Part shown: piece after piece, positions 10,075 to 48,763 of the stretch | Layout of the letters: every line of letters begins with the position of its first letter | How positions within the stretch are numbered: the first letter of the stretch is position 1 | NCBI GenBank assembly: GCA_944325565.1 | Contig: CALVAT010000005.1 | Location: 1 to 48,777, forward strand | Source of the DNA: Candidatus Gastranaerophilales bacterium | Lineage (GTDB): Bacteria > Cyanobacteriota > Vampirovibrionia > Gastranaerophilales > Gastranaerophilaceae | Length of the DNA stretch: 48,777 nt | Direction of reading: 5' to 3' | The notes under the pieces: generated by a model | The model's input: the letters and a program-made list of their open reading frames with translations, nothing else | What the model was told of the DNA's origin: nothing | Databases searched by the model: none | Translations under genes and position numbers: made by a program

Positions 10075-10082
10075 AAATAAAA

Positions 10083-10437
10083 AGGAGCAGCTCATAAGCC
10101 GGGTTCTGTTTTTAGATAATCATCTGTCTGGGGTTGCAGTTGCCTGCAAGCTCAAGCGGTTTGTCAAAAGACGGCGGGTCACCTTAACCTTTTTGTCAAC
10201 CTTGCACCCGACCGGGGTTTACCTGGCCAAGACCTCTCAGCCTTGCCGGTGAGCTCTTACCTCACCGTTGCACCATCGCCTGTTTTCACTGACAGTATCA
10301 GGAATCATCGGCAGTCTGCATTTCTGTGGCACTGTCCTCACGGTCGCCCGCACCTGACGTTATCAGGCGGTCTGCCCTAGGGTGCCCGGACTTTCCTCAC
10401 GGAATGTTTCATCCGCGCGATTATCCGGCTGCTCCTG
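10083..10437 (-). ncRNA. rnpB: RNase P RNA (bacterial type A)
   Basis: Read on the minus strand this is a full RNase P RNA. P1 is formed by GGAGCAGC near 10436-10428 and GCTGCTCC near 10091-10084. Conserved region I GAGGAAAGTCCGGGC lies at 10398-10384, GGTAAACCCC in the middle, and the 3' conserved ACAGAACCCGGCTTAT at 10109-10094. Length about 355 nt fits. P1 is followed by a T-rich tract (TTTTTATTTTTATTC) that overlaps the stop end of the CDF-CorC gene and probably serves as terminator. It is the catalytic subunit of the tRNA 5'-maturation enzyme. End positions are good to a few bases. Confidence 0.96.
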
Positions 10438-10755: not shown

Positions 10756-11466
10756 ATGAGAAGAGGGATTGAATTTAAGAAAAAAGCCAGAATCATCATA
10801 GTAGATGACAACTATGAACATTTGTCAGGTATCAAAGAGTTGATTGAAATCGAAAGCGATTTTGATGTTGTAGCAACAGCAACAAGCGCAAGTGTTGCAA
10901 TCAGTCTTATTAAGAAGTATCGTCCCGAAATCGTTTTGATGGATATCAACATGCCTGAAAAAGACGGTCTGACTGCAATAGCAGAGATTGAAAAACTTGA
11001 TTTGGGAGTGCGTATCATCGCTTTGACAGGCTACGATGATCCTGATTTAATCTTCAGAGCTATGAAAATTGGTGCTAAAGGCTATATCTTAAAAACAATG
11101 GCATCAGCTCAACTCATCTACGCAATAGACGAAGTTGCAGCGGGCAAGATTTATCTTCCTGCAACTTTGTCCTCAAGATTTTTCGAATATTTTCAACAGT
11201 CCTTCAAAGAAGAAACAGAAAATGTAGAAGACGAAGAAAACCTTTTAAACTATCTTACTCAAAGAGAGGAGGAAGTTCTTGACCTTTTAACACAGGGCAT
11301 AACATACAAAGGCGTGGCACAAAAACTGTTTATTTCTGAAACAACTGTAAAAACACACGTCAACAATATCTTTCAAAAATTGCAGGTTAATGACAGAACA
11401 CAGGCTGTTTTGTATGCATTGAACAACGGATTTTTGAACAGAAGAAAAGTCAAAATCGCTATATAG
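10756..11466 (+). CDS. NarL/FixJ-type response regulator
   Basis: 236 residues. Receiver domain about 10-130: acidic pair in IIIVDDN, phospho-acceptor D63 in IVLMDINMPEKDG, T of ALTGYDD, K in GYILKTM. A LuxR-type helix-turn-helix occupies about 165-230 (LTQREEEVLDLLTQGITYKGVAQKLFISETTVKTHVNNIFQKL). It should be a DNA-binding transcription regulator activated by a histidine kinase. The kinase at 12041 on the same strand is the obvious partner, separated by an unusual hairpin-rich stretch. A strong GGGGGGAG precedes the ATG. Confidence 0.94.
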   Translation: MRRGIEFKKKARIIIVDDNYEHLSGIKELIEIESDFDVVATATSASVAISLIKKYRPEIVLMDINMPEKDGLTAIAEIEKLDLGVRIIALTGYDDPDLIFRAMKIGAKGYILKTMASAQLIYAIDEVAAGKIYLPATLSSRFFEYFQQSFKEETENVEDEENLLNYLTQREEEVLDLLTQGITYKGVAQKLFISETTVKTHVNNIFQKLQVNDRTQAVLYALNNGFLNRRKVKIAI

Positions 11467-12040
11467 CGGATTTTATGCGGCTGTGGAGTCGAGTCTGTGA
11501 AACAGACGAGCGAACAGCCATGTGAGCAAGGTTAATGAAGAGCGGAATCGGACGGTGCTGACCAACGGGAACGCCCCATACGTAGGCGGATGTTACTCCG
11601 CCGGAGTGTCCGATTTCAAGACGAAGAATTTTTAGAATAAAAATTCGAAACGAAATGCTTAACCTTGTGAACGTCAATAATCCAAGAGCGGATTTGCCTT
11701 CTTTTGCCGCTGAGCAAAACAAATTCGGGCGAAGCGTGCAAAATGGCTTCACGAAACAATCGTCAAGCCCCGTAAAACAAACAATAGTCCGTAAATAGTG
11801 AACGGACGGACGGAGCGAACGAAGCGAGCGAGTCCGGTGAGTAAGGACTCCGTGCGAAAGGTGCCAGTGGCACGTTTCGGATGGAGACTCTGCCGAATAA
11901 AAGCAACTAAATGTTGCTTTTATGAGAGGGCTAAGTCAGAAGCGAAGCTTCTAGGTGCTGTATAGAAATTAAGAAACAAAGCAAATCCAAAAAGCCAGGG
12001 ACAATCAAACAAGTCCCACATTTAAATAATGGTATGATTA
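11467..12040. repeat. Hairpin-dense, GC-richer intergenic region
   Basis: 574 bases with no convincing ORF and a base composition unlike the flanks. Perfect or near-perfect stems follow one another: GGCTGT/ACAGCC (11479, 11514) enclosing GTCTGT-GAA-ACAGAC (11493-11507); AAGGTTAA/TTAACCTT (11528, 11659) closing a multi-branch unit that contains GGAATCGGAC/GTCCGATTTC (11544, 11608), GGCGGA/TCCGCC (11585, 11597) and GAATTTTTA-GAA-TAAAAATTC (11626-11646); then GTCCGT/ACGGAC, GAGTCC/GGACTC, CGAAAGGTGCC/GGCACGTTTCG, TAAAAGCAAC/GTTGCTTTTA (11898-11922) and AGAAGC-GAA-GCTTCT (11938-11952). It lies between the response regulator and its likely kinase. It may be a structured RNA, a long UTR, or a pile-up of palindromic repeats. 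Confidence 0.7.
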
Positions 12041-13306
12041 ATGAGCGGAGCAAACTTTAGACAAAAAAATCTTTTAAAAGATTTAATTTATCTGGGACAA
12101 ACAAAACCCGTAACGAAACAAACCGTTAAAGGTTTGTTTCGCTTTGCGCTTGAACCGCTTTTAGAAGCCCAAACCCAGAAAGCCGTTGTACTTACTAGAT
12201 TGTTCGATACAAAAGAGCTCGATGGTGTTTTAAAAAGACTGGAATTCACAAATGCCGAAGTTTACTCCTTTGACGATGTAACAAACGGCGAAAACCTTAC
12301 AAAAGAAGACATCTGGGGAGATACAGAGTTTCTTGTTCTGCTTTCACCCAGATATTCAGCCTGCCTATTGTGGGATTATTCCACAGAACCGGTAAAAGAC
12401 ACATCATGTCTTTATTATTTACTAAACTCCAGAGATATTAATAATGTAATACGTATTATCTCTCAAAATTCCAAAATCGATTTAATGAGATATACACAGG
12501 AATACACTCCAGAAAGAAGAAGCAACGAGCTTTTAAATCAGGCTGTACATAAATTTATTAACTTTGCTGATTCCTTTGTTGAAGAAGCCGCTCTTACACA
12601 GGCCGAGGCTGGACTACTGGGTGAAAGCGATGATATTGTAAAAAAATACGAATATATATCGACTAAAACAAAAGTAATCTCACACGACATCAAAAATCAC
12701 CTTTCAATTATAGATTTGTATTCCAAAATAATTGAAAAAAGGCTTGAAATGGTAAAAAATGCAGAGCTGCATGATTCCATTACAAACGCCATCTCAAGCA
12801 TTAAAAAGTCAAAAGATGCCATCGGAGTACTCTTAACCGAGCTTAGAACAATTCAGAGTGCTAAGCTGGAAACTCATAATTTTTCTAAAATTTTGCAAAA
12901 TGCAATTGAGCTTGTTAATGCAAAAGCGCAGCAGCAGCAGGTCAGATTCGAAGTATCAAACAGCTATAACGGAGATGTTCTTGCTGATGAAAACAAACTG
13001 CTTAACGTAATGATAAACCTTTTCTACAACGCTATTGATGCTGTGGATAAAGACGGTATTATTAAAGTTAAAACAGAAGTAACGGAAGATAATATGTTAA
13101 AAATCCTTATCTCCGACAATGGCTGCGGCATAGAAAAAGACAACCGTGAAAAAGTTTTTGAAGAAGGCTACACATCCAAAGTTACAGGCAGCGGACTCGG
13201 ATTGTATATATCAAAAGAAGCAATGCAAGAACAATACGGGGATTTAAAACTTATAAGTTCTAATAAAAAAGGTACTACCTTTGAAATATCAATACCAAAA
13301 CTTTAA
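12041..13306 (+). CDS. Cytoplasmic sensor histidine kinase
   Basis: 421 residues, no transmembrane segment. Residues 1-about 195 form an unrecognised input domain. The H-box is VISHDIKNHLSIID (H215). The ATPase domain has the N-box VMINLFYNAIDAV, G1 DNGCGI, F-box VFEEGYTSK and G2 GSGLGLYIS. It autophosphorylates and should pass phosphate to a regulator, most simply the NarL-type one upstream. Its stop lies 22 bases before flgB, so it heads a flgB-flgC-fliE transcript and may control flagellar assembly. There is no clear Shine-Dalgarno at ATG 12041; an extended -10-like TGGTATGAT ends 3 bases upstream. The start may therefore be misplaced. Confidence 0.9.
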   Translation: MSGANFRQKNLLKDLIYLGQTKPVTKQTVKGLFRFALEPLLEAQTQKAVVLTRLFDTKELDGVLKRLEFTNAEVYSFDDVTNGENLTKEDIWGDTEFLVLLSPRYSACLLWDYSTEPVKDTSCLYYLLNSRDINNVIRIISQNSKIDLMRYTQEYTPERRSNELLNQAVHKFINFADSFVEEAALTQAEAGLLGESDDIVKKYEYISTKTKVISHDIKNHLSIIDLYSKIIEKRLEMVKNAELHDSITNAISSIKKSKDAIGVLLTELRTIQSAKLETHNFSKILQNAIELVNAKAQQQQVRFEVSNSYNGDVLADENKLLNVMINLFYNAIDAVDKDGIIKVKTEVTEDNMLKILISDNGCGIEKDNREKVFEEGYTSKVTGSGLGLYISKEAMQEQYGDLKLISSNKKGTTFEISIPKL

Positions 13307-16577: not shown

Positions 16578-16628
16578 ACTTTACATGTTAATATAAACAT
16601 AAATTAAAAGAGGACTATTATAAGTATT

Positions 16629-21682: not shown

Positions 21683-21691
21683 GAACAGAAA

Positions 21692-21747
21692 CTAATCTAG
21701 TGTCGCAGTTGCTGCCGGCTGACCGCAGCCAGCACCTGCTCACCTTT
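21692..21747. repeat. REP-like 56-bp palindromic repeat, copy 1
   Basis: Begins CTAATCTAGTGTCGCAG and ends CACCTGCTCACCTTT. Identical over 56 bases to 48708-48763. The core folds as an imperfect hairpin: GCAG, TGC and GGCTG arms against CAGCC, GCA and CTGC around a CGGT-type loop. It is GC-rich in an AT-rich neighbourhood. Confidence 0.85.
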
Positions 21748-48544: not shown

Positions 48545-48710
48545 TTAGGGCTTTTTCTTCTGGAAAACAATTTCATAACCTAAAAGCTCAACTATTTCTT
48601 CGACTTCGTCAAATTTCATTGTGCTTCTATTTATCTTTTGCGATAAACCGTTAGATAAAACGTGCTCATTTCTTTTGTCAGATAAAAGTTCTGCAACCTT
48701 TTTTAATCTA
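48545..48710 (-). pseudogene. Truncated small HTH-like gene, interrupted by the REP-like repeat
   Basis: On the minus strand an open frame encodes KKVAELLSDKRNEHVLSNGL, SQKINRSTMKFDEVEEIVEL, LGYEIVFQKKKP and stops at 48547-48545. The pattern (LSQKINRSTMKFDEVEEIVELLGYE) is the second half of small XRE-like helix-turn-helix proteins. Reading upstream, a TAG inside the 56-base REP-like repeat ends the frame before any start codon. Either the repeat has inserted into the gene or the N-terminus is lost. Confidence 0.6.
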
Positions 48711-48763
48711 ATCTAGTGTCGCAGTTGCTGCCGGCTGACCGCAGCCAGCACCTGCTCACCTTT
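48708..48763. repeat. REP-like 56-bp palindromic repeat, copy 2
   Basis: Identical base for base to 21692-21747, same orientation on the plus strand. It directly adjoins the truncated HTH-like frame. Confidence 0.85.

Follow-up and report, generated by a model that had tools for sequence, protein, structure and literature searches.

In the genome of Candidatus Gastranaerophilales bacterium, the spacer that separates a response regulator gene from a histidine kinase gene consists of 574 bases densely packed with hairpins, raising the question of whether it holds one large structured RNA or a series of palindromic repeats inserted one after another, the two readings left side by side by the first-pass annotation of the DNA studied here (contig CALVAT010000005.1, positions 1 to 48,777; hereafter the window). 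We put the probability at about 90% that small non-coding mobile elements make up the region, having been inserted successively in the spacer between the two genes and in one another. This reading draws on copies scattered elsewhere, on blocks that are cleanly present or absent when relatives are compared and on multi-branch folds that are conserved; in addition, the 5′ end is fixed and follows an A, targets are not duplicated, and in many cases the first base of the element is the G that completes a TAG stop codon of the upstream gene. That the elements have moved is suggested by their pattern of presence and absence among sequences.

The spacer and its modules

The features of the locus, with the evidence that delimits them (own-genome copies are those in C45, C127 and C131; L061 is the locus of the closest relative), are as follows.

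10756–11466, plus strand: response regulator gene (open reading frame, name read from the sequence), with its TAG stop codon at 11464–11466
11466–11541, plus strand: left part of element A, starting GCGGATTT, its first G doubling as the final G of the TAG; copies in C127, C131 and C45, and L061 alignment
11542–11622, plus strand: element B, 81 nt, inside element A (GCGGAATC...GATTTCAAGAC); absent from L061 and L123 and from the A copies in C45, C127 and C131
11623–11687, plus strand: right part of element A, ending GTCAATAATCCAAGA; own-genome copies and L061 alignment
11688–11696, plus strand: left end of D (GCGGATTTG), with block C next; L061 alignment
11697–11802, plus strand: block C (106 nt), an insert within element D; site empty in L061 and L123, related copies in C131 and C127
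11803–11842, plus strand: first hairpin of element D (CGGACGGACGG...GAGTCCGG); L061 alignment and D-type family alignments
11843–11971, plus strand: element E inside D, carrying block F (AAGGACTCC ... GCTGTATAGAAATTA); E-core copies, with E also in L061 and L062
11888–11927 (ends uncertain by a few nt), plus strand: hairpin F, about 40 nt, inside E (ACTCTGCCGA ... GAGAG); absent from L061, other copies exist
11972–11997, plus strand: probable right remnant of D (AGAAACAAAGCAAATCCAAAAAGCCA); largely common to L061 and L062
11998–12017, plus strand: native spacer hairpin (GGGACAATCAAACAAGTCCC); common to L061 and L062
12041–13306, plus strand: histidine kinase gene (open reading frame and relatives, name read from the sequence)

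As the annotation had stated, there is no supported gene in 11467–12040; the sole listed open reading frame inside the region (97 aa, GTG start, minus strand, 11459–11752) is taken as spurious, since it crosses palindromes and overlaps block C, which is absent in L061. The region is also GC-richer than its flanks (0.463, vs 0.367 for the upstream and 0.355 for the downstream gene), a level reached by 11/1929 sliding stretches of 574 nt. Its strong stems were borne out by a minimum free energy structure with 14 hairpin loops and by comparison with dinucleotide shuffles (n = 100): the plus-strand fold, at −198.9 kcal/mol, is far better than the shuffles (mean −149.5, sd 6.3; z −7.8; 0/100 as good), and the minus strand of the region gives z −6.4. 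Several GAA triloops had been reported, and three of the 14 loops are of this kind (near 11498, 11634 and 11943), while the multi-branch unit is closed by AAGGTTAA (11528–11535) and TTAACCTT (11660–11667). The hairpin region is real, with a correction to its start: the unit begins one base before 11467, at 11466, where the upstream stop codon ends.

Dispersed copies had been named as the sign of repeats, and blastn found them: searching the own genome (a metagenome-assembled genome, MAG, of 2.06 Mb in 175 contigs) with the region yielded 45 matches, which cover different parts of it. Copies of the left unit on C127, C131 and C45 join the halves of A directly, where the window has 81 extra bases. 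In L061, flanks are near-identical to those of the window and three blocks are missing (B, 11542–11622; C, 11697–11802; F, ~11888–11927), with a 14-nt block found in L061 only; this alignment places B within A, C within D, F within E and E itself inside D. On the proposed history, B would have entered A, C and E would have entered D, and F would have entered E. Locus L062 carries E and the right part of D without A or the left part of D, so the order proposed for the oldest insertion steps is tentative. Any single block may have been lost by deletion instead, although insertion is favoured because A copies without B occur at other places.

E-type copies (L032, L059 and L148, among others) have hairpins whose stems differ while loops such as ACTAAATGT or TTGAGTA recur, a hint of palindrome correction or of swapped stems. 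A 59-nt repeat containing the palindrome GGCTGACCGCAGCC occurs twice in the window (21689–21747 and 48705–48763, 98% identical), the second time at the contig end, and has relatives on other contigs. The relative G061 (L138, 14972–15236) has a 263-nt block beginning TTTCATATAGTCAACTGACCCCGACAA that the window lacks (16601–16605); the ends of this block recur at other loci, for instance around the Y1 transposase gene in L115. An adjacent inverted repeat (CGAAACAAACCGTT/AAAGGTTTGTTTCG, 93% complementary) lies early in the histidine kinase coding sequence, at 12114–12141.

A structured family and its range

Elements that begin GCGGA[AT]T and end [AT]TCCAAGA consist of a closing helix with two branches; D-type copies in our alignment (A1) are 98–116 nt long, run from GCGG to CAAGA and contain 26 pairs in five helices. 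Among 14 copies, 98.1% of cells pair and 13/26 pairs show changes on both sides; none of 500 shuffles reaches this pairing, and slid controls drop to 15–41%. A search of the window plus 80 fetched stretches with a covariance model (R1) then gave 108 copies, each lying in one of the stretches; in the window itself, D is interrupted by C and E. In the resulting alignment, which is fitted to the structure, the 96 distinct rows have 98.0% paired cells and both-side changes in 20/26 pairs, a score reached by 0/500 shuffles. The two internal loops carry tandem GA/GA in 94/108 and 89/108 rows, and short loops of the first hairpin (n = 51) read GAA 27 times, AAA 19 times and GCA five times. In single-stranded DNA, GNA triloops and tandem GA pairs are known for very high stability; as a lead, their occurrence here may point towards a DNA form of the element. 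Copies of B type were left out, as their MAFFT alignment was too poor for pair counts. Each module is structured in its own right, and covarying stems, proposed as the sign of an RNA, are strongly present among its copies, so that both proposed signs turn up for the repeats rather than the locus.

With the whole region as query, blastn matched 23/23 genomes of the genus, 5/13 others of the family and 0/23 beyond it, while the D-type model matched 21/23, 9/13 and 3/23, respectively, the last three genomes all belonging to one other family. D-type matches reach 47 in a single genome (G007, 85% complete). We saw no match to the whole region in phages, to one D copy in plasmids or to two exact patterns in viral contigs. 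Open-licence papers on repeats or palindromes in Gastranaerophilales, Melainabacteria or Vampirovibrionia gave no account of these elements, and open-licence literature on nested palindromic elements, group II introns at stop codons and MITEs with stop codons held nothing on them.

Junctions and stop codons

Insertion sites were examined in empty and filled form. Stretches of three genomes gave 39 such rows, several of which are other repeats or indels, and some empty sites are paralogous repeats rather than the same locus. For B, the empty form ...AATGAAGA/GAAGAATT... (AAGA/GAAG, the slash marking the junction) is filled with GCGGAATC...GATTTCAAGAC and nothing is duplicated; a B-like insert in L177 occupies a quite different repeat, with the empty form GACA/AGCTG. 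Some elements of D type lie inside a dispersed target repeat, which reads GTTCATCAA/GTAGTCGG when empty vs GTTCATCAA, GCGG...CAAGA + N and a GTAGTCGG-like sequence when filled; among 15 empty target forms, one is exactly GTTCATCAA/GTAGTCGG and three are of the form GTTCAACAAGTAGTCGG. At ten right junctions (CAAGA + N + target), N is A in five, C in three and G in two. From these junctions the 5′ end is fixed, the 3′ end varies by about a base (CAAGA + 0–2 nt) and the target is not duplicated, although a one-base duplication of A may have arisen where N = A. The terminal CAAGA had been considered as a target duplication, an idea dropped after this comparison.

The flanks of D-type insertions were drawn from high-scoring matches (80 stretches of the matches listed), with nine of the 108 copies dropped for flanks identical to those of another copy; orthologous genes are counted several times among the 99 distinct flanks that remain. 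The base to the left is A in 89/99, and the three left flanks ending in T are all T-tracts. With placement classes set by simple patterns and at least 35 open codons required upstream, the element begins in 29/99 flank pairs exactly on the third base of a stop codon that is in frame and on the same strand; the remainder lie after another element (25), in a GTTCAWCAA repeat (14), in other palindromes (six), behind T-tracts (three) or elsewhere (22). By ORF-based gene calls, 72 elements share their strand with the nearest upstream gene and 21 are opposite to it; for six, no such gene was found.

Across all loci examined, which were partly chosen by the D model, an RCGRATTT start has offset 0 to a stop codon in 45 cases and an offset of 1–12 in eight, and antisense ends give 0 cases at offsets 0–4. 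Four control 8-mers gave 0/21, 0/18, 0/68 and 0/47 at offset 0, and the reverse complement of the start gave 3/206. The rule is not common to all modules, since E-type starts (0/79) and B-like starts (GCGGAATC; 0/39) do not follow it. In contig stretches not picked by the D model and with an ORF end upstream, the stop-codon position accounts for only 4/88 GCGGATTT sites and 1/20 GCGAATTT sites, many of the other sites lying inside genes or tandem copies. When a closing-helix partner is required, 42/73 candidate stop-codon cases stay, in 18 gene families; from their sequences we take these to include EF-Tu, ribosomal proteins S11, S13, L19 and L36, EF-P and flagellar genes. In 21 genomes, the rpmJ-rpsM-rpsK spacers show elements of A, D and other types sharing one stop-codon position across species, while G022 and G014 have short spacers without elements behind rpsM. 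The window's own element A obeys the same placement, its first G completing the TAG of the response regulator gene.

The same ribosomal spacers (L298–L318) also contain, in several species, a second and more degenerate kind of element directly after stop codons, ending ..CTTAATATCAGCGACGTAAGAGTTTTTGAAAAACTCCACAGGAGC.

Known systems, carriers and alternative readings

In manner, the elements resemble REP and SDR sequences; they are larger, branched and nested. Likeness to the REPs and REPINs of the GTAG and CGTC types covers short, dispersed, intergenic palindromes placed preferentially behind genes (PMC3733652; PMC3116915), and many dispersed intergenic copies were indeed found here. The same sources report compensatory changes for REPINs (PMC3733652; PMC3116915), and GTAG REP termini are reported to supply a TAG stop codon at times (PMC3733652), so where the elements sit relative to stop codons is not enough by itself to define a new class. 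REPs are, however, single hairpins of 20–40 bp with an unpaired GTAG or CGTC tag, unlike the elements described here, which span ~70–160 nt (98–116 nt and five helices for D type), start GCGGATT, end AATCCAAGA and have no partner transposase that we could find.

The SDR elements of Nostoc and relatives (Elhai and colleagues, 2008) are reportedly tiny and dispersed, with structure conserved over little sequence and with compensatory changes; they are also said to nest in themselves and in other repeats, and an RNA route has reportedly been proposed for them. Both structure supported by compensatory changes (here for D type) and nested insertion in other repeats and themselves are shared. At a reported 21–27 nt, SDRs are set apart by size from elements of ~70–160 nt. 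SDR5 is reported to insert precisely within HIP1 (PMC4390886).

Like MITEs (Nezha of cyanobacteria, NEMIS, ERIC), the elements are non-coding, dispersed, folded and probably moved in trans. In classical MITEs, the terminal inverted repeats are those of a known IS, and insertion duplicates the target; here, no such IS was found and no target-site duplication was seen, whether for D type (empty GTTCATCAAGTAGTCGG) or for B. Group II introns make no target duplication, those of group IIC insert behind terminator hairpins, and one case reportedly lies in the groEL stop codon of Azotobacter. The lack of duplication, the stop-codon site and the position behind terminators are points of likeness to these introns; the elements differ in being ~100 nt long, in a 5′ end of GCGGA vs the GUGYG of the introns, in the lack of a reverse transcriptase in most hosts and in having no Rfam match.

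No carrier enzyme was identified among the genus genomes, and Y1 transposases, reverse transcriptases and IS110 are absent from most of them. Reverse transcriptase (PF00078) matches occur in only 3/23 genomes, leaving 20/23 without one, the own genome included; IS110 matches occur in 1/23, and the IS91-like Y2 transposase in 0/23, a result without weight since control genomes were silent too. None of Y1, reverse transcriptase, IS110 or Y2 explains the spread, and gaps at repeats in MAGs may hide a carrier.

It is unlikely that these are REP/REPIN-type elements moved by a RAYT, a Y1 transposase of the same genome acting on single-stranded DNA. The absence of target duplication and the folded single-strand elements fit Y1 transposition in general. 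Y1 matches exist in 8/23 genus genomes (L113–L120), and the elements often lie just behind genes and give a TAG, as is described for GTAG REPs (PMC3733652). Against this, no Y1 match was found in the own genome and 14 others of the 23, including G007, which has the most D copies; the elements lack the GTAG tag; and the Y1 genes inspected (7/12 matches) mostly adjoin short hairpins of their own (GTAGGTTGGG..CCCAACCTAC-like, that is, GTAGG..CCTAC-like), rather than being flanked by the same element as in REP/RAYT pairs, with half an A element near one of them (L114). A RAYT as carrier is weakened by both this distribution and these hairpins. D elements were also seen inserted in the loops of GTAGG..CCTAC-like hairpins (L231, L244 and L267).

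Also unlikely, and slightly more so, is spread through RNA intermediates joined at cut mRNA, an RNA route having reportedly been proposed for cyanobacterial SDR elements. Joining at cut mRNA would explain the exact sense-direction UA^G placement, and is in line with the 45 sites at offset 0, the empty antisense offsets, the 18 gene families, the zero counts for E-type starts and unrelated 8-mers, and the T-tracts at all three T-ending flanks. Most genus genomes, however, lack PF00078, many sites lie within untranslated repeats and, as GTAG REPs give stop codons too, a DNA-level route with selection may suffice.

A single large structured non-coding RNA or riboregulator between the two genes is very improbable. 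The plus-strand fold and the covariation of the modules speak for it. The orthologous loci speak against it: the kinase has relatives at 23 loci, of which 21 are close (74–96% identity; labelled as 19 Candidatus Gastranaerophilales, one 'uncultured bacterium' and one 'uncultured Clostridia') and two distant (20–21%), and response regulator orthologs, ~96–100% identical, could be placed in 20/21 close loci. The spacer from upstream gene to kinase measures 69–119 nt in 12/20 of these, and the longest (L061, 365; L064, 439; L066, 323) contain different modules. Blocks are cleanly missing in L061, and no Rfam family reaches threshold within 11467–12040 (sub-threshold matches only, best E 0.15). 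On spacer variation and the Rfam result we rejected one conserved RNA; of the two readings first offered, it is successive repeats that stand, on the 45 own-genome matches and the three blocks that L061 lacks. The sole Rfam match in the window is a bacterial RNase P class A RNA (10079–10436, minus strand, 248.5 bits), just upstream of the response regulator gene and on the opposite strand.

An assembly artefact, with repeats collapsed or mis-joined, would suit a MAG of 175 contigs, several of which end in these repeats, but is hardly credible given that the A+B composite was also assembled in another species (L121, L125, L126, L127) and that the window's flanks match L061 almost base for base.

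Returning to the composite of mobile elements, the modules would be non-autonomous and rely on an enzyme acting in trans, which would recognise the fold in single-stranded DNA (or RNA) form and carry out the joining at an A^G step; the odds that this mover acts on single-stranded DNA seem about even. Insertions would persist at stop codons, within intergenic palindromes and behind the T-tracts of terminators because genes are spared there, with the sense-strand stop-codon site favoured over others, and elements so placed are probably transcribed as hairpins between cistrons. We regard as quite unlikely the stronger proposition of a new class of branched structured mobile elements, near-confined to one gut Cyanobacteriota family, that inserts sense-strand at A^G with a bias to the stop codons (UA^G) of expressed genes, its target choice coupled to translation or mRNA cleavage, without a known transposase or reverse transcriptase.

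For the question of how REP- and SDR-like elements move without an obvious enzyme, this family is useful material: similar copies are numerous, empty sites are clean, the 5′ junction is fixed, structural covariation is strong and the striking stop-codon placement is testable. Hairpin spacers of this sort should not be annotated as locus-specific RNAs, and the elements explain the hairpin-rich spacers and contig ends of Gastranaerophilales assemblies. The part that deserves follow-up is the stop-codon bias, a placement that involves ribosomal, translation and flagellar genes.
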